From contig NZ_PKEK01000067.1 of the NCBI RefSeq assembly GCF_002863225.1, forward strand, positions 1-64,000: 64,000 bases of DNA, in the 5' to 3' direction. This DNA is from Mycobacterium sp. (GTDB lineage: Bacteria; Actinomycetota; Actinomycetes; Mycobacteriales; Mycobacteriaceae). Positions 1 through 19,618 of this stretch are shown here, one piece after another (position 1 is the first letter of the stretch; every line of letters starts with the position of its first letter). The position numbers and the translations under genes were made by a program. The notes beneath the pieces were generated by a model. It was not told where the DNA came from. It did no database searches and saw only the letters and a list, made by a program, of their open reading frames with translations.

Positions 1-267
1 GATACGGTCAGTGGCAGATACTCGAACAGGCACGGGCGTAACTCCTTCTTCGCAGACTTGCAGGTCGTGAAGCGGAACCTACGCCCGTGCTCCCTATTTA
101 CACCGGATTCCGGACACGACCGCGTTTTCGGCGCCACCATCCCGTACTTCTTGTGTCTGATCACGATCCGCGGCACCGATCTGTCTGGCAAGACCGTGAT
201 CGCGCCCTGGTTCAGGTCTGATGCGCAGCGGTGCGAGGAACCGGAACCGGAACCGGAAGGCCACTGA
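1..267 (+). CDS. MceB family protein, C-terminal end (5' truncated by window)
   Basis: Frame 1 is open from the first base to a TGA at 265-267, giving the last 88 residues of a protein whose start lies outside the window. It immediately precedes, and overlaps by one base, a clear mceC, so by the fixed mceA-F gene order it should be the B subunit of a cell-envelope lipid importer. The tail contains a hydrophobic stretch (FGATIPYFLCLITI) like the end of MceB proteins and then a Pro/Glu repeat (EPEPEPE). The assignment depends mainly on operon position; the MCE domain itself is not visible. Confidence 0.6.
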   Translation, partial: DTVSGRYSNRHGRNSFFADLQVVKRNLRPCSLFTPDSGHDRVFGATIPYFLCLITIRGTDLSGKTVIAPWFRSDAQRCEEPEPEPEGH

Positions 268-2821: not shown

Positions 2822-4137
2822 CCGCCCGGACGGCCCTGTGGAGGCTGCTCGCCATCGGATGTTGCGTGATGCTGACCGGCACCGGTTGCGCCTTCCGCGG
2901 TCTCAACTCGCTGCCGCTGCCCGGCGCGGTGGGCCGCGGGCCGGACGCGAACGTCTATCACGTCGAAATGGCGAATGTCATTACGATGGAGTCGAATTCG
3001 CCGGTGATGATCGACGACGTCGTAGTCGGCAGCGTGGGGCCGATGACGGTCAAAGACTGGCATGCGAACGTGCAGATCTCGGTCAAGCCCGATGTTGTCA
3101 TACCCGCCAACGCAGAAGCCAGCATCGGTCAGACCAGCCTGCTGGGATCCATGCACCTGGAACTCAACCCACCCCTTGGACAGCCCGGTGTGGGCCGGCT
3201 GCGGCCGGGCGCCACCATTCCGCTGAATCGATCGTCGACCTATCCGTCGACCGAGCAGACCCTGTCGTCGCTGGCGTTGGTCGTCAACGGCGGAGGACTC
3301 GGTCAGATCGGCGAGATCATCCACAACTTCAGCGCTGCGCTTGCCGGACGCGGGGGCGCCGTTCGCGATTTGATCAATCGTTTCGACACTTTCGTGGGGA
3401 CGCTCGACGAACAACGTGACGAAATCGTGGCGACGATCCAGGCGCTGGACCAGCTCGGTGGCAGCTTCGCCGCGCAGCACGAAGTCATCACCCAGGCGCT
3501 GAACAAGGTACCGCCCGCACTCGATGTGCTGATCAAGGAGCGGCCACGCCTGACCGAAGCCCTGGACGGCCTGCGGAAGTTCAGTAACACCGCCACCGGG
3601 CTGATCAACGACACCCAGGCCGATTTGGTCAGGAATCTGAAGAATCTGGAGCCGACGGTGAAGGGGCTGGCCGACGTCGGACCGGACCTGGACACGGCAC
3701 TCGCGGCGTTCACGGTGTTCCCCTTCACCCAGAACTTCGTCGACCGCGCCGTCCGGGGTGACTACTTCAACCTGCATGTCCAACTGGATCTTTCGATCCC
3801 GCGGCTCAAGCGGGGCCTGTTCCTCGGAACCCATTTCGGACAGCTCGGGGAACAACAGATACCTGGGCCCGGGGATCCGCCCTATTTGCAATACACGCGG
3901 GATCCGTTCCACGCCGGCTTCGGACCACCGCCCGGTGCGCCGCCGCTGCCAGGACCACCAGCTGCGCCGGGGCCTGGTCAGCCGAACCTCCAGTTCAGCG
4001 CTCCGCTGCCGGGACCGGCCGCCACTCCGCCAGGTTTCGGACCGGCACCCGGGCCCGCGGCTGGACCGCCCCCGGGGCCGGGCGCGCCGAATGCTGCAGT
4101 GCCACCAGGGCTTCCGGCGACCGAGGGGAGCAGGTAG
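2818..4137 (+). CDS. mceE: MceE family lipoprotein, Mce lipid importer subunit
   Basis: A 439-residue protein starting at a GTG that overlaps the mceD stop (GTGA). The first 24 residues form a lipoprotein-type signal ending in LTGTGC, with Cys24 as the likely lipidated residue. The -3 position is Gly rather than Leu, so the lipobox is imperfect. The MCE domain (about 50-130) reads MIDDVVVGSVGPM in place of the usual VSGVKVG motif, which is normal for MceE. A helical region and an exceptionally Pro/Gly/Ala-rich C terminus of about 90 residues follow. MceE is the lipoprotein subunit in Mce systems. Confidence 0.87.
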   Translation: MTARTALWRLLAIGCCVMLTGTGCAFRGLNSLPLPGAVGRGPDANVYHVEMANVITMESNSPVMIDDVVVGSVGPMTVKDWHANVQISVKPDVVIPANAEASIGQTSLLGSMHLELNPPLGQPGVGRLRPGATIPLNRSSTYPSTEQTLSSLALVVNGGGLGQIGEIIHNFSAALAGRGGAVRDLINRFDTFVGTLDEQRDEIVATIQALDQLGGSFAAQHEVITQALNKVPPALDVLIKERPRLTEALDGLRKFSNTATGLINDTQADLVRNLKNLEPTVKGLADVGPDLDTALAAFTVFPFTQNFVDRAVRGDYFNLHVQLDLSIPRLKRGLFLGTHFGQLGEQQIPGPGDPPYLQYTRDPFHAGFGPPPGAPPLPGPPAAPGPGQPNLQFSAPLPGPAATPPGFGPAPGPAAGPPPGPGAPNAAVPPGLPATEGSR

Positions 4138-5847
4138 ATGCTGACACGCTTCGTCCGGCTTCAGCTGCTGATCTTCTCGATCGTCGGAATGATCGGCGTG
4201 ATCGCGATGGTCCTCTTCTACATCCAGGCGCCGACGTTGCTCGGAATCGGTCGGATTACAGTCAGCCTCGAGCTGCCGGCGACTGGCGGCCTGTACCGGT
4301 TCTCCAACGTGACCTACCGCGGGGTGCAGGTCGGCAAGGTCACTTCGGTGTCGTTGACGGCGCACGGCGCCAAAGCGACACTGTCGCTTGGCACTTCGCC
4401 CAAGATTCCGGCGAACCTGCAGGCCGAGGTACTGAGCGTCTCGGCGGTGGGTGAGCAGTATGTGGACCTGCGGCCACGTACCGATTCGGGGCCGTACCTT
4501 CGTGACGGGTCAGTTATCGCCATGCGCGACACCACGATTCCGCAGGCAGTCGGACCGATGCTCGACCAGGTGAGCTCGCTGGTCAAGAGCCTGCCCAAGA
4601 ACAAGATCGGCCAACTGCTCGACGAGTCGTTCCAGGCCTTCAACGGGGCCGGCTACGATCTGGGTTCGCTCAGCGATTCGGCGTCGCGAATCTCGGCTGA
4701 CTCCAACAGAATTGTGGAGCGCACGCGTGCACTCACCAACGACGCGCAGCCGCTGCTGAACTCGCAGGCGCAGACGACCGACTCGATCCGCAAGTGGGCG
4801 CGCAGCCTTGCCGGGATTTCGGATGTGTTGGCCAACGACGATTCTCAGTTTCGCACTGTGTTGCAGCAAGGTCCCGGAGCGCTCGACGAGGCTTCCGGGC
4901 TCTTCCAGCAGATCAAGCCGACATTGCCGCTGCTGCTGGCCAACCTGACCACGATCGGGCAGATCGGCATCACGTACCACCCGTCGATCGAGCAGTTGCT
5001 GGTGCTGTTGCCGGCGGCGGTTGCCTACGAGCAAACGGCGGGCAGCACGAACTGGCCCGACGGTCAGTCCAGGGGCGACTTCGCGCTCACGGTCGACGAC
5101 CCGCCGATCTGCACGGTCGGCTTCTTGCCGCCCAGCCAGTGGCGATCCCCGGCTGACACGAGCGACATCGACACCCCGGATGGGTTGTACTGCAAACTGC
5201 CGCAGGATTCGCCGCTCGCCGTTCGCGGCGCACGCAACTACCCGTGCATGGGACATCCCGGGAAGCGCGCCCCCACCGTCGAAATCTGCAACAGCGACAA
5301 GCCTTTCATGCCATTGGCGATGCGACAGCATGTGCTCGGCCCGTCCCCGCTGGATCCCAACCTGCTTGCCCAGGGCATCCCGCCCGACGACAGGGTCACC
5401 GCCGACAAGAGAATCTTCGGCCCGATCGAGGGAACACCGTTGCCGCTGGGAGCGGTCCCGCGCGGAACACCTCCGGGACCGCGGGGGGCGCCGCCGCCGC
5501 CGGGCACGTTGGGCGCGGCAGCACCGCCGGCGCCCTCGGCGGCCAACATGTCGACTCAGGCCTCGGAATTCCCCGCGATTGCTCCACTCGATGTGCCGGC
5601 ATCGCCACCCGCCATGCGGCGACCGGCCGCGCCTCCGAGGCCACCGGCCGTGATCGACGGCGGCCGGCCGCAAGTTGCGCCGAGTTCATTCGGCGGCAAC
5701 GCGTCTGAGCACGAGCCCCGGGTCGCGGTCGCGACATACGATCCGCGCAACGGTCGCTATCTCACCGCGGATGGGAAGTTTCTTGAGCAGTCAGACCTGG
5801 CGACCAAGGCAACGCCGAAGACATGGAGAGACATGCTCCCGACCTGA
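4138..5847 (+). CDS. mceF: MceF family protein, Mce lipid importer subunit
   Basis: A 569-residue final MCE subunit. Its ATG follows the mceE stop with no gap. The N-terminal helix (LLIFSIVGMIGVIAMVLFY) leads to the MCE domain with VTYRGVQVGKVTSV near residue 60. It continues with a long helical region, a Cys-containing globular stretch (about 320-390) and a Pro/Ala-rich tail of about 150 residues that ends in a conserved-looking GRYLTADGKF segment. It is the last gene of the + strand operon. Only 24 bases separate it from the convergent gene downstream. Confidence 0.88.
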   Translation: MLTRFVRLQLLIFSIVGMIGVIAMVLFYIQAPTLLGIGRITVSLELPATGGLYRFSNVTYRGVQVGKVTSVSLTAHGAKATLSLGTSPKIPANLQAEVLSVSAVGEQYVDLRPRTDSGPYLRDGSVIAMRDTTIPQAVGPMLDQVSSLVKSLPKNKIGQLLDESFQAFNGAGYDLGSLSDSASRISADSNRIVERTRALTNDAQPLLNSQAQTTDSIRKWARSLAGISDVLANDDSQFRTVLQQGPGALDEASGLFQQIKPTLPLLLANLTTIGQIGITYHPSIEQLLVLLPAAVAYEQTAGSTNWPDGQSRGDFALTVDDPPICTVGFLPPSQWRSPADTSDIDTPDGLYCKLPQDSPLAVRGARNYPCMGHPGKRAPTVEICNSDKPFMPLAMRQHVLGPSPLDPNLLAQGIPPDDRVTADKRIFGPIEGTPLPLGAVPRGTPPGPRGAPPPPGTLGAAAPPAPSAANMSTQASEFPAIAPLDVPASPPAMRRPAAPPRPPAVIDGGRPQVAPSSFGGNASEHEPRVAVATYDPRNGRYLTADGKFLEQSDLATKATPKTWRDMLPT

Positions 5848-5871
5848 GCGAATGCTCGGCCGACTATCCGA

Positions 5872-6399
5872 TCAGCCGATCTTGTCCAGCCGCATGGGGA
5901 TGTCGATGGACAGCCACTGGTTCTGCCCGCAGGCGCCGCTGGGGCCTAGCGTCTTGTTGCGGCCGGCCATCACCGGCGATCCGAGTTTCAGGTAGCCGCT
6001 GCCGTCGGGATCTGCGGGGTAGAACGAGAAAGTCTGTTTTCCGGTGAATGCGGTGCCGTCTTCGCAGCGCTCCCAGTTCGGCACGTCGTGTCGGACGTAC
6101 CACGATGTCCCGTCGATCATGTATAGGCGGGCGCTCCAGCCCTCGTCACTTGTCGCCGTACCGTCGCATTTTATGAAGGTCGAGCACGTAGAGCTCAGCG
6201 TCCAGGTTTGAATGGTGGTGGGCTCGCCGTTGTACTGGTCGTTGATCTTGGCCCAGTTGCCGATGGACGTAACGCGGTACACCCCGTTGATCGCGACGTC
6301 TTCCTTCGTCGTGGCCCACGCCGTCGTCGCCGGACCTGAAAAGCCAACTGCGCTGGCAGCCAACAGCATTGCTGTGGTGAGTGTCCCAAGTGGTCGCAT
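5872..6399 (-). CDS. Conserved secreted protein downstream of mce operon
   Basis: A 175-residue protein with a typical Sec signal peptide: a basic start, a hydrophobic core, and a cleavage site probably after ATTAWA near residue 29. The mature part has several Cys residues (CSTFIKC, and single Cys near 120 and 160) that could form disulfides, and many Trp/Tyr residues, suggesting a small compact envelope domain. A GAGGAG ribosome site lies before the ATG. I do not recognise the family by name. It is on the opposite strand to the mce operon and in the same direction as the two Mam genes behind it, so it may belong to the same accessory set. Confidence 0.7.
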   Translation of the reverse strand: MRPLGTLTTAMLLAASAVGFSGPATTAWATTKEDVAINGVYRVTSIGNWAKINDQYNGEPTTIQTWTLSSTCSTFIKCDGTATSDEGWSARLYMIDGTSWYVRHDVPNWERCEDGTAFTGKQTFSFYPADPDGSGYLKLGSPVMAGRNKTLGPSGACGQNQWLSIDIPMRLDKIG

Positions 6400-6529
6400 C
6401 GTCTACTCCTCGACGCGCTCTATCCGATCAGGTCGGAGCGGTGACTGTACCGGTAGCGGCGTTCTCGCCAGCCGAGAATATCACCGGAATGTTCGCGCTG
6501 GTCCGGGTTCGAGCAAAAGGGTTCGGCGC

Positions 6530-7207
6530 TTATCCGACCGGATCCAATTTGGAGATCAGCCACGAGCCGTGGACCTTCGACAGCGTCACTCGCACGCTGC
6601 TCGGAGTTATCAGCGGTTGGGGCTTGTCTTTGCCGGTCGTGGTCTCGTTGAGAAAGACCAGCACCACGGCTGAGTTCGGTCCCAGTTCCGACACCGCCGC
6701 TCGGACCACCGAGGCGGTTTGCGCGAGGTGCTTCTGCTGCACCGTCGGAATGACGATTTCCTTGGTGAATTTGTCGTAGTAAGCGAGGAAGTCCCCGGTG
6801 AGATGCGATCTCGCCCTGGCGAAGTCACTGTCCATGCTCTCGCTCGAGTAGGACAGCGCCGCGACTGCGCCGTCCGAGGCGGCTTGGATCGCCCGCCGCG
6901 ACGCGGCGTCGTCGATCTGGCGATCTGGACGGTACTGCAGGACGAACAGGCACACCGCCAGGCTCACCGCGGCAATGACCGTCGCCGTCAACAGGATTGA
7001 GCCCCAGTGCGCGAGAAGACTGGAGGCGACCCGATCGACCGCAGTATGTTGTTCGACGCGTGGTTCGCGGGTGGTACGAGCCTTGGCGCTCTCGTCCGGT
7101 GACTCCGAATCGCCGACCGTGGTCGTCTCTGCATCGTCGAGCGATGCTTCCGGGTTCTCAGCCGCGCTCGCAGTCTCGTCGAGCGGTGACTCCGATTCGG
7201 AACTCAT
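6530..7207 (-). CDS. Mce-associated membrane protein (Mam type)
   Basis: A 225-residue protein with an acidic, Ser/Glu-rich cytoplasmic N terminus of about 65 residues. One membrane helix (ILLTATVIAAVSLAVCLFVL) and an extracytoplasmic domain follow, carrying the features of Mce-associated proteins: RSHLTGDFLAYYDKFTKEI and a C-terminal VTLSKVHGSWLISKLDPV. These fold like NTF2-type domains and are thought to stabilise Mce complexes. Its ATG overlaps the stop of the upstream gene by four bases (7204-7207), so the two are translated as a pair. It lies on the strand opposite to mceB-F. Confidence 0.8.
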   Translation of the reverse strand: MSSESESPLDETASAAENPEASLDDAETTTVGDSESPDESAKARTTREPRVEQHTAVDRVASSLLAHWGSILLTATVIAAVSLAVCLFVLQYRPDRQIDDAASRRAIQAASDGAVAALSYSSESMDSDFARARSHLTGDFLAYYDKFTKEIVIPTVQQKHLAQTASVVRAAVSELGPNSAVVLVFLNETTTGKDKPQPLITPSSVRVTLSKVHGSWLISKLDPVG

Positions 7208-7917
7208 TGGACGAATTCAAGTTTCGACAACTTGAGCCGATCGCCGTCCCGATCGACGTTGACGCTCAGGCGCCAAAAGACCGGTGGCCGCACCGACTTG
7301 TCGCGGTTGACGGTGTCGGACTTCGCCACCACCAGGAGAACAGCGGAATTGTCTGTCATCGACTCGACCGCGACATCCTGCACGGTGGCCTTCGTGGCAA
7401 CCTGCGCTTCCTGGGCGTTCTTGGCCATGTAGCCCGACGTCGCTTCCAGTTGGCTCTTGAGCGCTCCGGTCGAGTCGTCGATGGTGTGCTGGAGATTCTC
7501 CACCGCGTGTGCGGGGTCGATCGACATCAGCGCGGCAACCTGCTCCCGGGCCGTCGCAGCGAACTCCGCAGCCCGCTGCCGTTGCTGCACGAGTGTGCGG
7601 TGCTGCCACACGAAGTAACCACTCGCGGCCAACGAGGCGAAGATCAGCACGATTGCCGCGCCGATACCCACCGCTCTTCGACTGGGAGGATGCGGCCGAT
7701 GTGGCCGCCACGCTTTGAATCTCGAGACAACCGGCTTGTCATCGTCAGCGTCTTCGATCGGTGGTTCGCTGGAGTCGGCCTCGGCCTCCCGACGCAATTC
7801 GGCGGCGCGTGCCCGTGCGGCCTCGGCGCGCTTCTCGGCACGAATGAGCTCTTCTTCTGCTTCCGCGAGCGAGTCTGGAGCTTCGGAGGTCGTCGGATCG
7901 GAGTCGGAGTGCGTCAC
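7204..7917 (-). CDS. Mce-associated membrane protein (Mam type)
   Basis: A 237-residue protein with the same plan as its neighbour. A charged N terminus predicted to be coiled coil (EEELIRAEKRAEAARARAAE) is followed by a membrane helix near 83-103. The extracytoplasmic domain has LMSIDPAHAVENLQHTIDDS and ends in LKLSKLEFVQ. It is first of the two-gene mam unit and overlaps the second by ATGA. The pair is convergent with the mce operon, whereas mam genes usually follow mceF on the same strand. Confidence 0.8.
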   Translation of the reverse strand: MTHSDSDPTTSEAPDSLAEAEEELIRAEKRAEAARARAAELRREAEADSSEPPIEDADDDKPVVSRFKAWRPHRPHPPSRRAVGIGAAIVLIFASLAASGYFVWQHRTLVQQRQRAAEFAATAREQVAALMSIDPAHAVENLQHTIDDSTGALKSQLEATSGYMAKNAQEAQVATKATVQDVAVESMTDNSAVLLVVAKSDTVNRDKSVRPPVFWRLSVNVDRDGDRLKLSKLEFVQ

Positions 7918-8536: not shown

Positions 8537-9202
8537 TCAGTCCTGGCGGTGCAGGAATCCGTGGAGTATCGCCTGAACCAGTTCGTCGACAATGGCTTGT
8601 CTCGGTGGGGGTTTGGTTCCGAAGTAGGTGGAACGCAATGCGGCCATGCCGGCGATCATGGCGACCGTCGAGTGGGCCGGTAGGTCGGGGTTGCTGGAGC
8701 GCAGGCCACGGATGCGCATGCCCTCCGCGCCGATCTGGCTCAGCACGTTGAGCGCTCGTCTGATGTCGGCGATGCCGGTCTCGGCGAGTTCGTCGTCGCT
8801 CAGCGTCTGGGCTGCCATCAGTGTCAACAGCAGACCCTGGTGTTCGACGAAGACGTCGTAGAGATGGCCGACGAAGCGATGAGTGAGTTCCTCCTCGTCG
8901 GCCTCTTCGTGCACGACCGAATTCCAGGTATTGCCGAAGTCGTCGACGAACTCGGTGAACGGCAGCACCAGGGCTTCGCGGAACAGTCCCGCTTTGGAGC
9001 CGAAATTGCGAAACAGCAGGTGCTCGGTAACGCCTGCGGCTTCGGCGATTTCACGTGTTGTGGTGCTCCGGTAGTCCTGGCGGGCGAACAGATCGCGGGC
9101 CGCGGCGAGCAGAAGTTTCCGCGGTGCACCGCGCGGCCGGCGTGACCCCGAGACCGGGGTCTCGGCCGCGGCCGGCAGTTTCGCAGAAGAGCGCTGGGGC
9201 AC
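8537..9202 (-). CDS. TetR family transcriptional regulator
   Basis: A 221-residue regulator. A Pro/Arg-rich leader of about 25 residues precedes the TetR helix-turn-helix (about 27-75: LLLAAARDLFARQDYRSTTTREIAEAAGVTEHLLFRNFGSK). The C-terminal ligand domain is helical and variable. It is transcribed away from the membrane-peptide/AveC-like/P450/reductase genes. A palindrome lies in the 96 bases between them (9248-9263), so it most likely represses that operon and possibly itself. The ligand is unknown; neighbouring P450 and reductase genes suggest a lipophilic one. Confidence 0.88.
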   Translation of the reverse strand: MPQRSSAKLPAAAETPVSGSRRPRGAPRKLLLAAARDLFARQDYRSTTTREIAEAAGVTEHLLFRNFGSKAGLFREALVLPFTEFVDDFGNTWNSVVHEEADEEELTHRFVGHLYDVFVEHQGLLLTLMAAQTLSDDELAETGIADIRRALNVLSQIGAEGMRIRGLRSSNPDLPAHSTVAMIAGMAALRSTYFGTKPPPRQAIVDELVQAILHGFLHRQD

Positions 9203-9247
9203 GGTTGCAGACTACTCAAACCGCCCCCGGTGGTTGACTCTTTATAG

Positions 9248-9263
9248 GATAGTCGCCACTATC
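9248..9263. promoter_or_regulatory. Candidate TetR operator (GATAGT-CGCC-ACTATC)
   Basis: A perfect 6-bp inverted repeat with a 4-bp spacer in the divergent gap between the TetR gene and the small-peptide/AveC-like operon. Its size and place fit a TetR dimer site. No second copy was noticed elsewhere in the window. Confidence 0.55.
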
Positions 9264-9298
9264 TAAAGGATCGTTTCCTTGAAGGAGAGGTTCTGGGC

Positions 9299-9415
9299 GT
9301 GGGTGCTGTCATCATGCTGGGCACGTTGTTCGGATTGATTGCTCTGGTATTCGGCTTGGTTCTCCGTTTCGATCCGGAAGCGCGGCGCACTCCGAGCGAG
9401 GGGGGCCGTCGATGA
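9299..9415 (+). CDS. Small single-pass membrane protein (38 aa), not in the ORF track
   Basis: An unlisted short ORF. A strong ribosome site (AAGGAGAGG, 9282-9290) stands eight bases before a GTG at 9299. An in-frame ATG at 9314 is an alternative start giving 33 residues. The peptide starts with a hydrophobic helix (MLGTLFGLIALVFGLVL) followed by a basic, soluble tail (RFDPEARRTPSEGGRR). Its TGA overlaps the ATG of the AveC-like gene (ATGA), the usual sign of coupled translation, which supports it being a real gene rather than a leader artefact. It may be a small subunit or assembly partner of the following membrane protein. Confidence 0.62.
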   Translation: MGAVIMLGTLFGLIALVFGLVLRFDPEARRTPSEGGRR

Positions 9416-10197
9416 CCCCGAAGATCACGCCGCTGCTGGCGGGACAGATGTACTTTGCCTACGCCTCGGGCATCGCGTTCATCGTCATCGGCATCTATCT
9501 GAGCTATCGCCGCCGTCGCCTGCATCCGCTGCTGCTGCTGAGCATTTCGGCGCTGTCGTTCTCCTGGATCGAATCGCCCTACGACTGGGCGATGTACGCG
9601 CAGTTCCCGCCCGGTCTGCCGCGAATGCCATCGTGGTGGCCGCTCAACGTCACGTGGGGCGGCTTGCCCTCGGCGGTACCCATCGGCTACGTCTCCTATT
9701 TCGTACTCCCCGCACTGATCGGTGCCGCCCTGGGTAGATGGCTCAGCGCAAAGTTCCACTGGCGCAGGCCAACTACCCTGCTGACGGTCGGCCTGGTGGT
9801 GGGCTTCTGTTGGGCTTTCGTGTTCAACGCCATCACCGGTGCTCATTTCGGCAACTTCTACTACGGCTACGTCATCCCCGGGCTGGCGATCTTCGAGGGA
9901 ACCAAACATCAGTACCCGCTGTATGACTCGCTGGCCATGGGCATCGAAATGATGGTGTTCACCTACCTGCTCGGCCGCACTGACGCGGAGGGTCGCAACG
10001 TCATCGAGATATGGGCCGACAGCAAGGCGAAAACCCGCGTGCAGTCGGCGGTCCTGTCGGTCGTCGCCGTCATCGTCCTCGGTCACCTGGTGTACGGCTC
10101 GGTGTTTGCGCCGCACCTCATTACGAAACAGGGTGGCTGGGTGACGGCGGGTCCCACCGAACAACTCTTCCCGGGAACACCCAATCAGCCCCGCTAG
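9412..10197 (+). CDS. AveC-like (spirocyclase AveC family) integral membrane protein
   Basis: A 261-residue polytopic membrane protein with about six or seven hydrophobic helices. Conserved-looking polar segments lie between them: FSWIESPYDWAMYAQFP, PLNVTWGGLPS, and NAITGAHFGNFYYGYVIPG. I recall this pattern from proteins annotated as spirocyclase AveC family, named after the Streptomyces avermectin enzyme; mycobacterial members have no established reaction. It is translationally coupled to the 38-aa membrane peptide upstream, and a P450 starts 16 bases downstream. A role in cyclising, binding or handling a lipophilic substrate of that P450 is inference. Confidence 0.68.
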   Translation: MTPKITPLLAGQMYFAYASGIAFIVIGIYLSYRRRRLHPLLLLSISALSFSWIESPYDWAMYAQFPPGLPRMPSWWPLNVTWGGLPSAVPIGYVSYFVLPALIGAALGRWLSAKFHWRRPTTLLTVGLVVGFCWAFVFNAITGAHFGNFYYGYVIPGLAIFEGTKHQYPLYDSLAMGIEMMVFTYLLGRTDAEGRNVIEIWADSKAKTRVQSAVLSVVAVIVLGHLVYGSVFAPHLITKQGGWVTAGPTEQLFPGTPNQPR

Positions 10198-10213
10198 CAG
10201 CAGAAGGCAGACC

Positions 10214-11407
10214 TTGAGCAATTCGACAACTGAGTTGTACTACGACCCGTTCGACCACGCCATCGACGACGATCCCTATCCGGTGTGGAAGCGGATGCGC
10301 GCCGAGGCCCCCCTGTACTACAACGCCAAGCACAACTTCTACGCGCTGAGTCGCTACGACGATGTCTCGCCGGCACTGCACGACTGGCAGACCTACCGTT
10401 CCGGGCACGGCACCACCGCAGATGTCTTGTTCAGTGGCATCGACATACCACCGGGCATTCTGCTCTGGGAAGACCCGCCGCTCCACGACTTGCACCGTCG
10501 GCTGTTGTCACGGGTCTTCACTCCCCGGCGCATGCTGGCGGTCGAAGGACTCGTGCGTGATTTGTGTTCGCGCGCACTGGATCCACTCCGTGACCTCGAC
10601 GGGTTCGACTTCGTCGACGACCTCGGTGCGATCATGCCCATGCGGACCATCGGCTACCTCCTCGGCATCCCCGAGGAAGGTCAACAGCAGATTCGTGAGC
10701 GCAACGACAAGAGCATCACCGTCGAATCCGGCGGCACACTGCTCACCGCGACGACCCTCGAGGAGTCGATCGCGCAGTTCGCCGACTACATCGAGTGGAG
10801 ATCGACACATCCGTCCGACGACCTGATGACGGAACTACTCAACGCGCAGGTCGAAGAACCCGACGGCACGATGCGGCCGCTGGACCGCGGTGAAGTGATC
10901 GCCTACACCGCGATGATCGCCGGCGCGGGGGGTGAGACCACCGCGCGGCTGATCGGTTTCATGGGTCAGCTACTCGGTGAAAACCCAGAGCAGAGAAGAG
11001 AACTCGCCGCAGACCCGTCCCTGATCCCGTCGGCGGTCGAGGAGACGTTGCGTTACGAACCGCCTTCACCGGTGCAGGGGCGGTACGTCGCGCGCGACAC
11101 CGAACTCTACGGGCAGACGGTGAGCGAAGGCTCCTACATGCTCTTGCTCAACGCCTCGGCCAATCGCGACGAGTCGCACTTCGTCGAGCCGGATCGCTAC
11201 GACATCCACCGTAAGGCAGGCCATTTGAGTTTCGGCCAGGGCTTGCACTTCTGTCTGGGCTCCTCGCTGGCACGGTTGGAAGCGCGGGTCGCGTTCGAGG
11301 AGGTGTTCAAGCGGTGGACCGACTGGGACGTCGACTACGCCAACGCCAGCAGGGCAAGAACGTCCAGTGTCCGGGGTTGGGCCCGGCTGCCGGTCAAAGT
11401 CGCGTGA
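10214..11407 (+). CDS. Cytochrome P450
   Basis: A 397-residue soluble P450 starting at a TTG with an AGAAGG site eight bases upstream. The I-helix motif AGAGGETT is near residue 235, the K-helix ExxR is in EETLRYEPP, and the heme loop FGQGLHFCLG has the Cys ligand at about residue 347. All key residues are present and the length is normal for an actinobacterial CYP. It sits between the AveC-like gene and a DapB-like oxidoreductase in one operon. No ferredoxin gene is adjacent, so electrons must come from elsewhere. The substrate is unknown. Confidence 0.93.
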   Translation: MSNSTTELYYDPFDHAIDDDPYPVWKRMRAEAPLYYNAKHNFYALSRYDDVSPALHDWQTYRSGHGTTADVLFSGIDIPPGILLWEDPPLHDLHRRLLSRVFTPRRMLAVEGLVRDLCSRALDPLRDLDGFDFVDDLGAIMPMRTIGYLLGIPEEGQQQIRERNDKSITVESGGTLLTATTLEESIAQFADYIEWRSTHPSDDLMTELLNAQVEEPDGTMRPLDRGEVIAYTAMIAGAGGETTARLIGFMGQLLGENPEQRRELAADPSLIPSAVEETLRYEPPSPVQGRYVARDTELYGQTVSEGSYMLLLNASANRDESHFVEPDRYDIHRKAGHLSFGQGLHFCLGSSLARLEARVAFEEVFKRWTDWDVDYANASRARTSSVRGWARLPVKVA

Positions 11408-11455
11408 TCGAAGATACTGCAAAACAACAGGTTTGACCTCAACGAGGAGGAAGCG

Positions 11456-12565
11456 ATGACCGCAGGCAAGTACCGCGTAGTGGTGTGGGCGACCGGGGGG
11501 ATCGGGTCGATCGCGATACGCACCATTACCAACCGCCCAGACCTGGAGCTGGTCGGGGTGTGGGTGCATTCCGACGACAAGGTGGGCAAGGACGCCGGCG
11601 AGCTCGCCAACGGCGACCCGATCGGCATCACGGCGACCAACGATGCCGATGCGCTGATCGCGTTGAAACCGGACTGCGTGGTCTATGCGGCCAGCGGCCC
11701 CGAACGTGACGCGCTGGCGATTCCCGACTATGTGAAACTGCTCGAAGCGGGCCTCAACGTGGTCACCACCAGCACCACCCGGCTGGTGAACCCGCACGCA
11801 TACGAGCCGGCCGAGTGGCGCGAACAGCTTGCAGCAGCGGCCAAACAGGGCCAGGCGTCGCTCTATGCCTCGGGCATCGAACCCGGTTTCGCGGCCGACT
11901 ACCTGCCGCTGGTGCTGTCCACGCAGTCGTCGTCGATCGAGAAGATCCACTCCTACGAAATCGGGCTGTACGACGACTACGGCGTTCCCGACATCATGAT
12001 CAACGGCCTGGGTTTCGGTCAGCCGCTGGACTACCAGCCCTGGATCTCCTATCCCGGTGCCATCGCCGGTGAGTGGGCCGGCCAACTCCGGTTGATCGGC
12101 GATGCTTTCGGTGTCGAGGTCGAAGAAGTACGCGAGGACTTCGACCGTGCGGTGACCAACGAAACCCTCGAGGTGGCAATGGGAACCGTCGAAGCGGGGA
12201 CCTGTGGCGCCATCCGTATGAAGGCCATCGGTGTCGTCGACGGTCGCGAAGCGATCATCGTCGAACACGTCACGCGACTGGCGCACAGCGTCGCTCCGGA
12301 GTGGCCGAGGGGAATCGGCGACTTGTCCTATCGCGTGGCGATCACCGGCGATCCCGACATCGACTGCACACTGGCGGCAACCCAGCGTGATCCCGGACGG
12401 GTCGGAATCGGTTCGATGACCTCGGGTGCCGGCGCGATGGTGGCCACCGCGATGCGGGTCGTCAACGCCGTCCCCTATGTCGTCAAGGCACCGCCCGGCT
12501 TGCTGAGCGCCGTCGACCTGCCGCTGACCATTCCCAAGAATGTCTTTGCCACCCAACAAGTGTGA
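11456..12565 (+). CDS. DapB-like (dihydrodipicolinate reductase N-domain) NAD(P)H oxidoreductase
   Basis: A 369-residue oxidoreductase with a Rossmann start (VVWATGGIGSIAIR) and then a DapB-like domain (ELVGVWVHSDDKVGKDAGEL). The C-terminal part, with DIMINGLGFGQPLDY and VVNAVPYVVKAPPGLLS, is typical of a mycobacterial family annotated as dihydrodipicolinate-reductase-like or amine-dehydrogenase-like. True DapB (about 245 aa) is shorter, so a lysine-pathway role is unlikely. An excellent ribosome site (GAGGAGGAAG) precedes the ATG. It is followed by a frameshifted paralogue, so the pair arose by tandem duplication. The reaction is not established. Confidence 0.8.
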   Translation: MTAGKYRVVVWATGGIGSIAIRTITNRPDLELVGVWVHSDDKVGKDAGELANGDPIGITATNDADALIALKPDCVVYAASGPERDALAIPDYVKLLEAGLNVVTTSTTRLVNPHAYEPAEWREQLAAAAKQGQASLYASGIEPGFAADYLPLVLSTQSSSIEKIHSYEIGLYDDYGVPDIMINGLGFGQPLDYQPWISYPGAIAGEWAGQLRLIGDAFGVEVEEVREDFDRAVTNETLEVAMGTVEAGTCGAIRMKAIGVVDGREAIIVEHVTRLAHSVAPEWPRGIGDLSYRVAITGDPDIDCTLAATQRDPGRVGIGSMTSGAGAMVATAMRVVNAVPYVVKAPPGLLSAVDLPLTIPKNVFATQQV

Positions 12566-12579
12566 AGAAGGAGAATGCG

Positions 12580-13645
12580 GTGGCGCGCATCGTGGTGTGG
12601 TCGACGGGTGGTGTCGGATCGGTCGCGATCGACGCCATCCGCCGTCGACCGGACCTGGAACTTGTTGGGGTGTGGGTTCATTCGTCCGAAAAGGTGGGCA
12701 AGGATGTCGGCGAACTCTCCGGTGGTGACCAGATGGGGTTGGCCGCTACCAACGACGCGGACGCGCTCATCGCTCTCCAGCCGGATTGCGTGGTGTACGC
12801 CGCCAGCGGCCCGCAACGTGACGCGGGCGCCGTCCCGGACTACCTGAGATTCCTCGCGGCGGGCATCAACGTCGTGTCGACGTCGACCACAAGCCTGATT
12901 TTATCCGCCGTCCTACTTCGCCACCGAGTGGCGTGATCAGCTCGCTGCCGCCGCGCACGCCGGTGGTGCGTCGTTCTATGCATCGGGCATTTTTCCCGGC
13001 TTCGCCTCTGATCAGCTCGCGCTGCTGATGAGCACTCAGTCCAAGACGATTCGCACGCTCACCGTCAGCGAAATCGCGCTCAACGACCACTATCCGGTGG
13101 CCGACATCATGATCAACGGCATGGGATTCGCCCGCCCACTGGACTTCGAGCCGATGTTGAAGACGCCGGGGTTCATCGAAATCGCTTGGAAGGCACCGAT
13201 TCATCTCATTGCCGACGGACTCGGCGTCGAGGTCGACGAGATCCGCGGGAGCTTGGACCGCGAGCTGACCGACCGGGACATCGACGTCGCGTTCGGCACG
13301 ATTCCGGCCGGAACGTGCGGCGCGGTGCGAACCAGGGCGGTTGGCGTGGTCGGCGGCCGCGAGGCGATCGTGGTGGAACACATCATCCGGATGGCGCGCG
13401 ACGTCGCCCCGAATTGGCCGACCTCCGAATCCGATGCCACCTACCGGATCGACATCGAGGGCGAACCAGACATCCACTGCGCGTTGACAATGGGCGCCAC
13501 CCGGGGCCACGGCGCCGGCCACGCCGCGATGGCATCCACCGCGATGCGGGTGGTCAACGCCGTCCCCTTCGTGGTGGATGCGCCACCCGGCCTACTCAGC
13601 TCGCTGGATATTCCGATGACGCTGCCACGCAACGTATTCGAGTAA
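12580..13645 (+). pseudogene. DapB-like oxidoreductase paralogue with a +1 frameshift
   Basis: The first frame (GTG at 12580, AAGAAGGAG seven bases upstream) gives VVWSTGGVGS to VSTSTTSLI, parallel to the upstream gene. It then falls out of frame at the T run 12899-12902 and stops at 12934-12936. Removing one T restores a continuous match (SLI then YPPSYFATEWRDQLAAAAHAG) that runs through FARPLDF and VVNAVPFVVDAPPGLLS to the stop at 13645. The repaired protein would be about 354 residues with no other defect. It is either a recent single-base inactivation or a homopolymer sequencing error. The ORF at 13028 in the track is only the downstream half. Confidence 0.85.
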
Positions 13646-13650
13646 GACCC

Positions 13651-14946
13651 CTACGACACCGTCGCCAGCGCGGGCCGCGGCGTGAACGTCAGGTGCAGGT
13701 CGCTGAGTCCGCGCAGGATGTAGGTCGGCTCGAAGGTGTAGCGCCGCTCGTCGACCGGTCCATGCTGGGTCTCGCTGATGGTGATGTCGGACATCCGGTC
13801 CAGGATGCGCTCGATCGAGACGCGTCCCTCGACGCGGGCCAGCGGTGCGCCCGGGCAGGAGTGCACGCCGCGGGCGAACGCCATGTGCTCGCGGACGTTC
13901 TTGCGATCGATCTGGAATTCGTGCGGGTTCTCGAAGCGCCGGGGGTCGCGGTTGGCGGCGCCGGGCAGGATCATCACGACGGTGCCGGCCGGGATGTCGA
14001 CCCCGGCGACGGTGGTCGAGCGGACCGCGAGCCGGGAGTCGCTCTTGACCGGGCTCTCCATCCGCAACGACTCTTCGATGAACCCGGGAATCAGGCTGCG
14101 GTCCTCGCGCAGCCGCTGCTGAACACCCGGCCGGTCGCCGAGAGCCTGCAGGGCCGCCGAGAGCAGCTTGGCGGTGGTCTCCTGTCCGGCGGCGAAAAGG
14201 AATGTCGCCGAACGGCTTACCTCGATCACCTCGGGCGTGGAGCCGTCGGGGTACTTCGCCGTCGCCAGCGACGTCAGTACGTCGTCGCGAGGGGAGCTGC
14301 GCCGGTCCTCGATGTAGGAGCAGAACTTGTCGTCGAGCCACTCCAACGGGTTGATACCGACCGACTCGTGATCCAGCGCACCGACCCGTGCCCCCGGGCG
14401 GTCGGCGCCCAGCACGTGGCGGAACTCCTTGTGATCCTCTTCCGGGACGCCGAGCAGGTCGGCAATCACCAGAGTGGCGAACGGCTTGGAGTACTCGCCG
14501 ATGAACTCGCATTCACCGTTGCCGAGAAACTCTTCGAGCTGGCGGTCGGCCAGCCGCCACATGAATTCCTCGTTCTCCTTCAACCGGCTCGGCGTCAGCA
14601 GCCGGCTCAGGATCGAGCGCGCCCGGGTGTGGTCGGGCGGGTCCATGGTGACCATGTGCTCGAACATCGGGAACTGGCTGCGGTGCGCGTCGATCAGCGG
14701 ACGCAGGTCGTCACCGGCGACCTCGAACGGCAACGGCGGAAACGGGCCACCGAGCGCGACGATGTTGGAGAACGTCTCCGGATCCTTGTAGACCGCGTTG
14801 GCTTCTTCCCAACCGGTCACCGCGACGACGTTGTAGTGCGGAAGTCGCAGCACTGGATTTTGACTACGCAGGTAATCGAAGTACGGGTGCGGATCGGGAA
14901 CCAGTGACTGGTCGGTGAAGAAGTCGATCGAGTCGAAGCTGCTCAT
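13651..14946 (-). CDS. Cytochrome P450
   Basis: A 431-residue P450 on the strand opposite to the preceding cluster. It has the I-helix LFAAGQETTAKLL, the ExxR in EESLRMESP and a heme loop FARGVHSCPG with Cys at about residue 364. The Arg where most CYPs have Gly is unusual, but the FxxGxHxCxG frame is kept. The stop lies six bases from the reductase paralogue's stop. It is divergent from a TetR gene 212 bases away, with a double palindrome between them, so it is probably controlled by that regulator. It is not closely similar to the other P450 in the window. Confidence 0.93.
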   Translation of the reverse strand: MSSFDSIDFFTDQSLVPDPHPYFDYLRSQNPVLRLPHYNVVAVTGWEEANAVYKDPETFSNIVALGGPFPPLPFEVAGDDLRPLIDAHRSQFPMFEHMVTMDPPDHTRARSILSRLLTPSRLKENEEFMWRLADRQLEEFLGNGECEFIGEYSKPFATLVIADLLGVPEEDHKEFRHVLGADRPGARVGALDHESVGINPLEWLDDKFCSYIEDRRSSPRDDVLTSLATAKYPDGSTPEVIEVSRSATFLFAAGQETTAKLLSAALQALGDRPGVQQRLREDRSLIPGFIEESLRMESPVKSDSRLAVRSTTVAGVDIPAGTVVMILPGAANRDPRRFENPHEFQIDRKNVREHMAFARGVHSCPGAPLARVEGRVSIERILDRMSDITISETQHGPVDERRYTFEPTYILRGLSDLHLTFTPRPALATVS

Positions 14947-15047
14947 GTACGCGGGCCTCCCGAGGCTGTTTTACCCGTGGTGTGTGGGGCGATTAGATGC
15001 TGCGACGATCTGCCGCCAGGAATTGACTTCGGCAAATGTGCGGAACT

Positions 15048-15067
15048 TGCTGAGCACCTGCTTAGCA
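15048..15067. promoter_or_regulatory. Twin palindromes TGCTgAGCA / TGCTtAGCA, candidate TetR operator
   Basis: Two 9-bp TGCTNAGCA palindromes separated by CC lie between the divergent P450 and TetR genes. Two identical half-operators in tandem suit cooperative binding of two TetR dimers. Assignment to the adjacent regulator is inference. Confidence 0.5.
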
Positions 15068-15158
15068 TGACGCTAATGTCGTGGTCAAGGCGAGCGCGCG
15101 GACCGCGACTACGATCGGCTTGTTCGGCAAATTTTCGGCGAGAGTGTGGAACCACGGC

Positions 15159-15749
15159 ATGACTTCGGCCCGCAGGATCGGGGCACCGGACGCGAAAAAT
15201 CGCACGGTGCTGCTCGACGCCGCCGAGCAGTTGATGCTCGAAGACGGATATGCGGCAGTCACCTCGCGCCGGATCGCGGAGCGCGCGGCGCTCAAGCCGC
15301 AGCTGGTGCACTACTACTTCCGCACCATGGACGATCTGTTCCTCGCGGCGTTTCGCCGCCGCGCCGAGGAGGGACTCGAAGTGCAGGCGTTGATGCTGCA
15401 GGCGCCGCAGCCGTTGTGGGCGCTGTGGCGGTTCAGCACTGACCCGGCGGCCACCGCCATCACGATGGAATTCATCGCGCTGGCCAACCACCGCAAAGCG
15501 CTGAAGGCGGAGATCGCCTACTACGCCGAGCGTTTTCGCGAGGAGCAGCGCAAAGCGCTCACGACGATTCTCGAGGGCTACGGGGTCGATCCGGCCAAAT
15601 TCCCGCCGCTGGTGTGGTCGGTGCTGATGACCAGCGTGTCCCGGGTCCTGGTCATCGAGCAGGCTCTCGACATGTCCGCCGGCCACCGGGAGACCGTCGA
15701 GATCGTCGAGGCCTATCTCCGCCATCTCGAGGGCGACCCTCAGATCTAG
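15159..15749 (+). CDS. TetR family transcriptional regulator
   Basis: A 196-residue regulator from the ATG at 15159. GTG 15144 and the track start 15081 would add residues that are not TetR-like. The helix-turn-helix covers about 16-62 (VLLDAAEQLMLEDGYAAVTSRRIAERAALKPQLVHYYFRTMDDL), with a helical ligand domain behind it. It is divergent from the P450 at 13651-14946. The double palindrome between them lies 92-111 bases upstream of this start, consistent with control of the P450 and autoregulation. The stop lies five bases from a convergent exported-protein gene. Confidence 0.85.
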   Translation: MTSARRIGAPDAKNRTVLLDAAEQLMLEDGYAAVTSRRIAERAALKPQLVHYYFRTMDDLFLAAFRRRAEEGLEVQALMLQAPQPLWALWRFSTDPAATAITMEFIALANHRKALKAEIAYYAERFREEQRKALTTILEGYGVDPAKFPPLVWSVLMTSVSRVLVIEQALDMSAGHRETVEIVEAYLRHLEGDPQI

Positions 15750-16932: not shown

Positions 16933-16953
16933 TGTGAGAATATCATTCTCACA
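16933..16953. promoter_or_regulatory. Perfect 9-bp inverted repeat, operator of the amidohydrolase-FadD operon
   Basis: TGTGAGAAT, spacer ATC, then ATTCTCACA, ending eight bases before the AAGGAGG ribosome site of the amidohydrolase gene. Arms are perfect over nine bases. The position would block transcription or early elongation. It does not match either TetR palindrome in the window, so the regulator is probably encoded elsewhere. Confidence 0.6.
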
Positions 16954-16972
16954 AAATGTGAAGGAGGATTTC

Positions 16973-18163
16973 ATGGGGCAGCTGTCGCATCGTGAGGACG
17001 TCCCGTTTCCAATCTTTGACGCGGACAACCATCTCTACGAGCCGCCGGAGGCGCTGACCAAGTTCCTGCCCAAGGAGTACAAGGACTACGTCCAGTACCC
17101 GCAGATCAACGGGCGGACGAAGATCGCCATCCGCGGCCAGATCAGCAATTACATTCCCAACCCGACCTTCGAGGTCGTCGCCAAGCCGGGGGCGTGGGAG
17201 GAATATTTCAAGTACGGCAACCCGGACGGCAAGAGCAAGCGCGAACTGTTCGGTGAGCCGATGCGCGCGATCCCGGCTTTCTTCGAGCCCGGCCCACGCC
17301 TGGAGAAGATGGACGAGCTGGGCTTGGACCGCACCCTGATGTTCCCGACGCTGGCCAGCCTTCTCGAGGAGCGGCTGTCGGACGACCCGGTCGCCATCCA
17401 TGTGCTGGTTCACGCGCTGAACGAATGGCTCGACGACGTCTGGGGCTTCAACTACCAGAACCGCATCTTCACCACCCCGGTCATCACCCTGCCGATCGTG
17501 GAGAAGGCGATCGAGGAGTTGGAGTGGGCGGTCAAGCGTGGTGCCCGATGCGTCCTGATCCGCCCGGCGCCGGTTCCCGGCTTCCGTGGCCCGCGGTCGT
17601 TCGCGCTTCCCGAGTTCGATCCGTTCTGGGAGCGGGTCGTCGATCACGACGTGCTGGTCGGCATGCACTCCAGCGACAGTGGCTACTCGCGCTACACCTC
17701 GGAGTGGGATGGGGCCAGCGCAGAGATGCTGCCGTTCCAAACCAACGCGATGGGCATCCTCAACGAGTGGCGGCCGATCCAGGACTCGGTGGGCTCGTGG
17801 GTGATCCACGGCGCGCTCTACCGCCACCCGAAGCTGAAGGTCGCGATCGTCGAAGCCGGCTCGAAGTGGATGACCCCGCTTCTGGACGGTCTGGCGGAGG
17901 TGTTCCGCAAGGCCCCGGAGGCGTTCCCGAGTGATCCCGTCGAGATGGTCAAGAACCGGATCCACGTCAGCCCGTTCTTCGAGGACGGCATCGACGACCT
18001 GGTCAACCTCGTCGGGGTGGATCAGGTGCTCTACGGCTCGGACTGGCCGCATCCCGAAGGCCTGGCGGAGCCGACGTTCTACGTCAACGCGCTGTCGCAC
18101 CTGTCTGCCGACGACCAGGCGAAGATCATGGGCGGAAACCTGTCTCGTCTCGTCACGGTGTAG
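16973..18163 (+). CDS. Amidohydrolase family (amidohydrolase_2) protein
   Basis: A 396-residue TIM-barrel metal hydrolase. The ATG at 16973 with AAGGAGG at 16961-16967 is preferred over the upstream start in the palindrome. Motifs are FDADNHLYEPPE at the start, VGMHSSDSGYS in the middle and VLYGSDWPHPEGL near the end, the family's metal-ligand Asp region. Members hydrolyse or decarboxylate cyclic and aromatic substrates, often in sterol or aromatic degradation in actinobacteria. It heads an operon with an acyl-CoA ligase in the same reading frame right behind it, suggesting ring cleavage or hydrolysis followed by CoA activation. Confidence 0.85.
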   Translation: MGQLSHREDVPFPIFDADNHLYEPPEALTKFLPKEYKDYVQYPQINGRTKIAIRGQISNYIPNPTFEVVAKPGAWEEYFKYGNPDGKSKRELFGEPMRAIPAFFEPGPRLEKMDELGLDRTLMFPTLASLLEERLSDDPVAIHVLVHALNEWLDDVWGFNYQNRIFTTPVITLPIVEKAIEELEWAVKRGARCVLIRPAPVPGFRGPRSFALPEFDPFWERVVDHDVLVGMHSSDSGYSRYTSEWDGASAEMLPFQTNAMGILNEWRPIQDSVGSWVIHGALYRHPKLKVAIVEAGSKWMTPLLDGLAEVFRKAPEAFPSDPVEMVKNRIHVSPFFEDGIDDLVNLVGVDQVLYGSDWPHPEGLAEPTFYVNALSHLSADDQAKIMGGNLSRLVTV

Positions 18164-18202
18164 CAACCGCTGGACAATCTGACGTGGCAGACCATCCCCG
18201 AG

Positions 18203-19618
18203 ATGGTCGCCAGCGCGGCGGACCGCTTCGGCGACACCGAAGCTGTTGTCGACGGTCCGCTGCGCTTGACTTTCACTGAGCTCGTCGATCGAATTCGTTG
18301 CGCCGCAGGCGCTTTCGCCGAGCTCGGGATCGCCAAGGGCGATCGGGTCGCGGTCTGGGCCCCCAACTGCGCCGAATGGATCGTTGCCGCGTTCGGTGTG
18401 CTCACGGCCGGTGGCGTGCTGGTGCCGGTGAACACCCGGTTCAAGCCCGACGAGGCCGGTGACATCATCACCAGAAGCCGCGCCAAAGCCGTGCTGGTGC
18501 AACAGGGATTCCTCGGCCAGGACTTCACCGCCCCGGCGGGCATCCCGGTTATCGACCTGAAGTCCGAGTTCCTCTCCAGCGGCTCGCCGTTCGCGCGTTC
18601 GGTGGACGGCGCCGACGTCTCCGACATCATCTTCACCTCGGGAACCACCGGCCGTCCCAAGGGCGCGATGATGAACCACCGCCAGACGCTGCGGATGTAC
18701 GAGGAATGGGCGACGCTCGCCGACCTGCGCACGGGTGACCGGTATCTGATGATCAACCCGTACTTTCACACGTTCGGTCTGAAAGCGGGATTGGTCGCCT
18801 CATTCCTGCGCGGCGCGACGATGCTGCCGATGGCTGTGTTCGACGTCGACACCGTGGTAGATCTCATTGAACGTGAACGAATCTCGATGTTGCCAGGGCC
18901 GCCGACCCTGTATCACTCGCTGCTGACGGTCGCGGACAAAACCAAACTGTCGACGCTGCGGGCCGGTGTGACGGGTGCCGCCGACATCCCGGTCGAGTTG
19001 GTTCGCCGCATCCACGACGAACTGCCGTTCCAGACGTTGATGACCGGCTACGGGCTCACCGAAGCCGGCAACGTCACCTTGTCGCGACCCGGCGACTCCT
19101 TCGAGGACGTGGCCACCACCGCGGGTCTGCCCTGCGAGGACGTCGAAGTGCGCATCGCCGGGGACGGCGAAGTGCTGGTGCGCGGCTACGGCGTCATGCA
19201 GGGCTACCTCGACGATCCGGAGGCTACTGCCCTGGCCATCGACGGCGACGGGTGGCTGCACACCGGAGATCTGGGTAATTTCGACAAGTCCGGCCGGTTG
19301 AAGATCGACGGGCGTAAAAAGGACATGTTCATCGTCGGCGGGTTCAATGCGTACCCGGCTGAGATCGAGGGGTTCATGCTGGAGCACCCGGCCGTTGCCC
19401 AGGTCGCCGTGGTCGGTGTGCCCGACGAGCGGCTCGGCCAGGTGGGAAAGGCCTTTGTGGTGCCAGCGGGAAGTCCGAAAACTGCTGTTTCCGAACAGGA
19501 TCTGGTGGCGTGGTGTCGTGAGCGGATGGCCGGGTTCAAGGCGCCGCGATACATTCAGTTTCTCGACAGCCTGCCGCTGAACGCCACCGGAAAGGTGATG
19601 AAGGACCAGCTTCGGTGA
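18203..19618 (+). CDS. Acyl-CoA synthetase / AMP-dependent ligase (FadD type)
   Basis: A 471-residue ANL-family ligase from the ATG at 18203. The AMP-binding P-loop FTSGTTGRPKGAMM is near 147-160, the YGLTEAGN adenine motif is near 280, WLHTGDLG is near 350, and the catalytic Lys is in NATGKVMK at the end. Homologues usually begin with about ten more residues. The sequence upstream (DNLTWQTIPE) is in frame and ligase-like, but its only possible start is a CTG at 18173, so the true start may be non-canonical. It forms the CoA thioester of a carboxylic acid, probably the amidohydrolase product. Confidence 0.88.
   Translation: MVASAADRFGDTEAVVDGPLRLTFTELVDRIRCAAGAFAELGIAKGDRVAVWAPNCAEWIVAAFGVLTAGGVLVPVNTRFKPDEAGDIITRSRAKAVLVQQGFLGQDFTAPAGIPVIDLKSEFLSSGSPFARSVDGADVSDIIFTSGTTGRPKGAMMNHRQTLRMYEEWATLADLRTGDRYLMINPYFHTFGLKAGLVASFLRGATMLPMAVFDVDTVVDLIERERISMLPGPPTLYHSLLTVADKTKLSTLRAGVTGAADIPVELVRRIHDELPFQTLMTGYGLTEAGNVTLSRPGDSFEDVATTAGLPCEDVEVRIAGDGEVLVRGYGVMQGYLDDPEATALAIDGDGWLHTGDLGNFDKSGRLKIDGRKKDMFIVGGFNAYPAEIEGFMLEHPAVAQVAVVGVPDERLGQVGKAFVVPAGSPKTAVSEQDLVAWCRERMAGFKAPRYIQFLDSLPLNATGKVMKDQLR

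Follow-up and report, generated by a model that had tools for sequence, protein, structure and literature searches.

The question raised by this locus is whether a run of genes in Mycobacterium sp., coding for a TetR regulator (TetR1), a small membrane peptide (pep), an AveC-like protein (AveC1), a cytochrome P450 (CYPa) and two DapB-like oxidoreductases (Dap1 and Dap2, together Dap), constitutes a single pathway, and what chemistry such a pathway would perform. The genes lie in a window of 64,000 nucleotides, the whole stretch of DNA analysed, and belong to a genome assembled into 113 contigs totalling 5.95 Mb. The original prediction, made from the letters alone, had joined them with an opposite-strand P450 (CYPb) and a second TetR gene (TetR2) into one cluster flanked by TetR genes at each end. 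Profile searches have confirmed the gene content, finding the TetR, AveC_like, P450, two DapB-like, opposite-strand P450 and second TetR genes in place (Table 1). The segment from TetR1 to Dap2 (8537-13645) is a genuine unit with its right limit at 13645, while CYPb and TetR2 are a separate regulated P450 unit, next door by happenstance. With a probability that can be put at about even, the unit is an inducible pathway module under local control that oxidises a lipophilic compound, catabolic more likely than biosynthetic, with pep and AveC1 acting as a membrane enzyme.

Linkage of AveC1 to its partner genes

AveC-like genes are common in mycobacteria, an AveC1 orthologue occurring in 81 of the 149 congeneric genomes sampled for co-occurrence, many of them with further paralogues. 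CYPa (at 62% or more) is present in 77 of the 81 genomes with AveC1 compared to five of the 68 others (Fisher p 8e-31), and in 65 of those 77 no more than 26 kb separates it from AveC1. For Dap the corresponding figures are 59 of 81 and five of 68 (p 4e-17), with 48 of the 59 genomes having it within 26 kb of AveC1. Seven genomes carry both CYPa and Dap away from AveC1, the two being still about 3-4 kb apart. Local arrangement was compared in 80 loci with an AveC1 orthologue (the analysed stretch and 79 others, mostly of 20 kb), with genes called from codon usage and then clustered. CYPa directly follows AveC1 in 27 of them and lies beyond TetR1 in 20; overall, CYPa falls inside the stretch in 51 loci and Dap in 24. 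On the AveC tree the local arrangement must have changed at least 14 times, which indicates that linkage has been kept through rearrangement. Conservation of gene order, proposed earlier as a check on the cluster, has thus been borne out for the company that the genes keep across the 149 genomes and not for their immediate order.

The nearest AveC1 relatives are from Mycobacterium sp. E1214 (86%), the M. colombiense group, M. bohemicum and other mycobacteria. M. bohemicum and strain E1214 have the same TetR1 / pep-AveC-CYPa-Dap1 order as the analysed genome, with different genes beyond Dap1. In the analysed genome pep and AveC1 overlap through ATGA, followed by gaps of 16, 48 and 14 bases between the genes up to Dap2. 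A frequent site elsewhere (type II) lies amid rhodanese, 19-kDa-type lipoprotein, PatB, DUF2652 and haloalkane dehalogenase genes, a neighbourhood which we take to be Rv2290-Rv2296 of M. tuberculosis. Further afield, TetR1, operator, pep, AveC and CYPa are all found in two Aldersonia genomes, and pep-AveC-CYPa, without TetR1 or operator, in one genome from another family of the order. An AveC of 36% identity from the same genus stands in an operon of TetR, AveC, luciferase-like monooxygenase, Dap, Dap, binding protein and short-chain dehydrogenase/reductase (SDR), the last two being nearest to groups that accompany AveC2, a second AveC-like type described below. The association of AveC with an oxygenase and a Dap pair would therefore either predate the AveC1 clade or have been assembled more than once.

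A chance assembly of unrelated genes would account for the variable order around AveC1, and CYPb and TetR2 are indeed unrelated neighbours. Nonetheless, the partners have remained linked through at least 14 rearrangements, co-occur strongly, and stand together also in Aldersonia and in the clade of the 36% AveC, so that chance is scarcely credible as an explanation; it is effectively refuted for TetR1-pep-AveC-CYPa and still possible for Dap2 in this strain.

The flanking of the cluster by a TetR gene at each end joins two units and has had to be given up. CYPb matches CYP150A6 of M. marinum (6dcd) with an E value of 2.9e-237. Some 40 of the 149 genomes carry its closest orthologues (81-86%), at listed positions that are not near AveC1, and TetR2 is divergent from CYPb in 29 of 29 loci examined; the pair has been rejected as part of the AveC unit on these grounds. 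CYP150A6 with its TetR is the closest known counterpart of CYPb and the divergent TetR2; CYPb is a neighbour of the AveC unit, not a member. What stands of the single TetR-controlled AveC/P450/DapB cluster is TetR1-pep-AveC-CYPa-Dap, by virtue of co-occurrence, linkage and a single palindrome. A different CYP150-like P450, about 60% identical, belongs to the neighbourhood of another set of loci (type III). A palindrome between CYPb and TetR2 (TTAGC-N5-GCTAA) recurs in only two relatives, and literature searches on CYP150 function returned nothing useful.

Table 1. Genes and sites of the locus, in window coordinates.
Feature	Position	Strand	Basis and remarks
TetR1, divergent local regulator	8537..9202	-	PF00440; divergent and adjacent in 66/80 AveC1 loci
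Probable TetR1 operator, ATAGTCGCCACTAT	9249..9262		sole ATAGTN4ACTAT in genome; exact in 55/80 AveC1 promoters
pep, 38-residue single-helix membrane peptide, VGAVIMLGTLFGLIALVFGLVLRFDPEARRTPSEGGRR	9299..9415	+	80/80 loci; coding substitution pattern; GTG start
AveC1, AveC-like integral membrane protein, six predicted long helices	9412..10197	+	PF17198, 266.7 bits
CYPa, cytochrome P450, TTG start	10214..11407	+	PF00067; heme and I-helix motifs intact; AveC1 co-occurrence
Dap1, DapB/DAP_DH_C-fold NAD(P) oxidoreductase lacking the P3 glutamate	11456..12565	+	PF01113 and PF19328; TT for EE
Dap2, second DapB-fold oxidoreductase, frameshifted	12580..13645	+	two frames; open relatives with motif STSSTS
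CYPb, CYP150-type P450	13651..14946	-	outside AveC unit
TetR2, ATG start, divergent from CYPb	15159..15749	+	TetR profile; outside AveC unit

TetR1 and its probable operator

The TetR_N domain that profile search detects in TetR1 (PF00440) and a palindrome in the divergent promoter are conserved jointly, as would be the case for a local TetR repressor. The palindrome, ATAGT-N4-ACTAT, most commonly in the form ATAGTGTSCACTAT, is exact in 55 of the 80 AveC promoters and present as the core alone in four more. The remaining seven loci with TetR1 carry it with one or two mismatches, and neither an exact nor a core match is present in any of the 14 loci that lack TetR1. It occurs 56 times in 1.55 Mb of locus sequence, 55 of these at the AveC promoter, and once only in the analysed genome, at 9249-9262 between TetR1 and pep. 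Among 29 other genomes, most of those having TetR1 beside AveC carry it at the AveC promoter, with few extra sites elsewhere, and the three genomes without any palindrome are among those that lack an adjacent TetR1. This comparative evidence argues strongly for TetR1 as a one-site regulator, and a single repressor with one genomic site appears to control the AveC-P450-Dap unit.

A wider regulon was considered and rejected, given the single site in the analysed genome and extra sites in the other 29 genomes which are few and near the background of the reversed pattern; one of these adjoins the Dap genes of a single genome (G146). A scan for sigma-70 promoters over 9150-9330 returned no site. 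At one TetR1/AveC promoter (locus L316; genome G110, contig C1, 2173112-2173148), two operator copies lie 23 bases apart.

The membrane peptide, AveC1 and the oxidoreductases

The small peptide noticed originally is real. All 80 loci have, ahead of AveC1, an open reading frame with the pattern (M/V)GxxIMLGTLFGLIxLIFGLVxxFDPEAR, and over a core of 25 codons pairwise comparison gives differences of 0.197, 0.084 and 0.381 at codon positions 1, 2 and 3, a pattern which indicates translation as protein. Ahead of the AveC domain, an additional hydrophobic segment is present in AveC2 and in almost every other AveC-like subfamily read; two members of a clade at 34-36% have it after the domain, and AveC1 has none on either side. 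An AlphaFold2 model of AveC1 contains six long helices (predicted local distance difference test score, pLDDT, 89.6; predicted template modelling score 0.86), and that of AveC2 a comparable set preceded by a helix at 21-40 (pLDDT 76 overall). Taken together, the fused helix of the other subfamilies, its absence from AveC1 and the two models suggest that pep is probably a detached helix of AveC1.

AveC1 matches the AveC_like profile PF17198 far above the cut-off of 26.6, over positions 2-234 of 234. Foldseek searches of the PDB with the AveC1 and AveC2 models gave no solved fold at E <= 0.001, and a sequence search of the PDB gave no match. No AveC relatives were found on plasmids. The earlier statement that these proteins have no assigned reaction in mycobacteria agrees with full-text literature searches, which returned no functional study of mycobacterial AveC-like proteins. 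Polar residues including E54, D58, R33, H38, D172 and D191 are invariant in AveC1. An acidic residue with D or N four residues on, which is E54/D58 in AveC1, recurs in the AveC-like subfamilies inspected, and the pair is a candidate active site.

These data bear on whether pep-AveC1 is an enzyme at all, since it could be a membrane scaffold or a carrier of lipophilic compounds feeding CYPa, with the P450 and Dap doing all of the chemistry. The tightest partner of AveC1 is CYPa (77/81), its model is a helical membrane protein without a match to a solved enzyme fold, and an additional single-helix subunit would suit a membrane assembly. The invariant polar residues argue against this role, as does the characterised relative AveC, which has been reported as a bifunctional enzyme of spiroketalisation and dehydration (PMC13303154). 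A scaffold or carrier is consequently possible and rather unlikely, and the membrane enzyme is the reading retained here.

In CYPa the P450 motifs are intact: FGQGLHFCLG at 340 (FxxGxxxCxG), ETLR at 277 (ExxR) and AGGETT at 238 (I-helix AGxxT). It has no close solved relative, the best E value being about 1e-58.

Dap1 combines DapB_N (PF01113) with DAP_DH_C (PF19328) and aligns over its full length with the solved native amine dehydrogenases (6g1h, 6iaq, 7xdu), to whose family it belongs by homology. The catalytic glutamate P3 is absent: Dap1 reads TSTTRL where 6g1h, 7xdu and 6iaq have EEM, TT replacing EE, and the residue is likewise replaced (by TT, or ST in Dap2 relatives) in every Dap1 or Dap2 relative with a readable site. 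In this enzyme group P3 is the catalytic residue, and enzymes of group G5 that lack it showed no activity towards the substrates tested (PMC11164908), which makes amination by Dap unlikely. That Dap1 and Dap2 are native amine dehydrogenases, converting a P450-derived ketone to an amine, would fit the whole-length homology to 6g1h and 6iaq and to the NCBIfam family NF040740; considering the missing glutamate, the inactive G5 enzymes and a score of 132.7, far below the NCBIfam cut-off of 400, it is a very improbable role. The names "dihydrodipicolinate reductase" and "amine dehydrogenase" are misleading for both proteins.

The prediction of two DapB-like reductases holds in full for Dap1, which is open, and in part for Dap2, whose frame changes at a TTTT run (12899-12902). 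Dap2-type genes are open in several relatives, so that the copy here either became a pseudogene recently or reflects an error in the assembly. Elsewhere in the same genome (G000, contig C39, L127:13121-16387), a Dap1 paralogue (48%) is fused in a single frame of ~1089 residues to an AMP-binding, acyl-CoA ligase-type enzyme and adjoins a CoA-transferase and P450s. The fusion hints that the Dap clade may act on activated acids.

Several observations concern the surroundings of the unit. To the left of TetR1 lies the apparent end of an mce operon (231-5847), recognised from sequence and mce-like matches elsewhere rather than by profile search, and two Mce-associated-like genes, on the opposite strand from the mce genes, extend the region to 7917 (231-7917). 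In L064, L102, L106 and L178, too, AveC has mce genes nearby. The mce operon was rejected as part of the system, as several such operons occur per genome and by a rough estimate the proximity is about at chance level. Further right, at 16934-19618, an amidohydrolase-2 protein is followed by a FadD3-family acyl-CoA ligase; other amidohydrolases are near AveC-like genes in L121 and L050.

Proposed pathway and comparison with known systems

Considering the enzymes encoded, the oxidation of a lipophilic substrate proposed originally is reasonable; the cyclisation offered as its alternative draws only on the name of the AveC family and is conjectural. TetR1, on the lone palindrome between its own gene and pep, would block transcription, the site being indicated by conservation, until it is freed from the operator by a ligand, which is probably either the substrate or a product of the first steps. 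From comparison and structure prediction, pep and AveC1 would form a two-piece integral membrane protein, with pep giving the extra helix. CYPa would hydroxylate the substrate, and Dap1/Dap2 may use NAD(P)H in a step on an intermediate with a carbonyl or thioester group, as opposed to ammonia-dependent amination. At the membrane, pep-AveC1 could catalyse an acid/base dehydration, ring-forming or ring-opening, comparable to that of AveC on a dihydroxy-ketone.

Enzymes of catabolic type recur around AveC-like genes, including mycofactocin-type SDRs, aldehyde dehydrogenases, CoA-transferases, acyl-CoA dehydrogenases and P450s, which favours a catabolic pathway. Membership of the AveC family and the presence of oxidising and reducing enzymes of tailoring type could be taken to mean that the product of the unit is a natural product or lipid with a ring of spiroketal-like type, by analogy with the part that AveC plays in avermectin biosynthesis. 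No polyketide synthase or scaffold-building enzyme was seen among the identified recurring partners of AveC-like genes, whose neighbours are catabolic in type, and a biosynthetic cluster would not be expected to scatter and reassemble as small modules, so that such a product is improbable.

Several points weigh against the inducible catabolic module proposed here. The p-values given above are too small, since related genomes are not independent. Eight AveC1 loci consist of TetR1-pep-AveC alone, with CYPa and Dap elsewhere, and where CYPa-Dap has split off, the exact operator is absent beside it in most genomes. In addition, 22 of the 81 AveC1 genomes have no close Dap, which is thus not obligatory. 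AveC1 is a distant relative of AveC, whose reaction it may not share. A more specific proposal is made tentatively, as somewhat less probable than its converse: pep-AveC1 would be a two-subunit membrane enzyme with a fold lacking solved relatives and an obligatory peptide of 31-45 residues, forming with a P450 and a pair of DapB-fold proteins without the glutamate an undescribed mycobacterial oxidative pathway under a single-site repressor. What is new is the membrane peptide found at every locus, the operator with its single site, the lasting partnership of AveC, P450 and Dap, and the absence of the glutamate. With a bounded operon, a one-site regulator as a handle for switching it on, steady partner enzymes and an easily missed subunit, function becomes directly testable, and in a species that is not pathogenic.

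Among known systems, the native amine dehydrogenases and 2,4-diaminopentanoate dehydrogenase (PF19328; 6g1h, 6g1m, 7xdu, 6iaq) share domain order and whole-length homology with Dap, which differs in lacking the catalytic glutamate, as do most members of group G5 (PMC11164908). The mycobacterial AveC2-type clusters (SDR, VWA, MoxR/CbbQ, binding protein, AveC2, SDR and P450) likewise combine an AveC-like protein with a P450 and dehydrogenases; AveC2 is only about 22-26% identical to AveC1, has its own N-terminal helix and keeps other partners. It falls inside the AveC1 stretch in 28 of the 80 loci, and is on a different contig from AveC1 in the analysed genome. One such cluster, which is strongly conserved (G000, contig C4, L123:3335-14651; also L068 and L105), encodes a mycofactocin-type SDR, VWA protein, MoxR/CbbQ ATPase, binding protein (up to 93-95%, with no evident signal peptide), AveC2, SDR, P450 (88%), a dihydrodipicolinate synthase-like protein and a CoA-transferase, and looks like a second, undescribed system.

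AveC of avermectin biosynthesis has been described as a bifunctional spiroketal cyclase/dehydratase, with no solved structure (PMC13303154). AveC1 belongs to the same Pfam family over nearly the whole domain, as judged from a profile match, and is similarly a membrane protein amid P450 and redox enzymes. It differs from AveC in not standing beside a polyketide synthase and in having a separate peptide in place of the extra fused helix.

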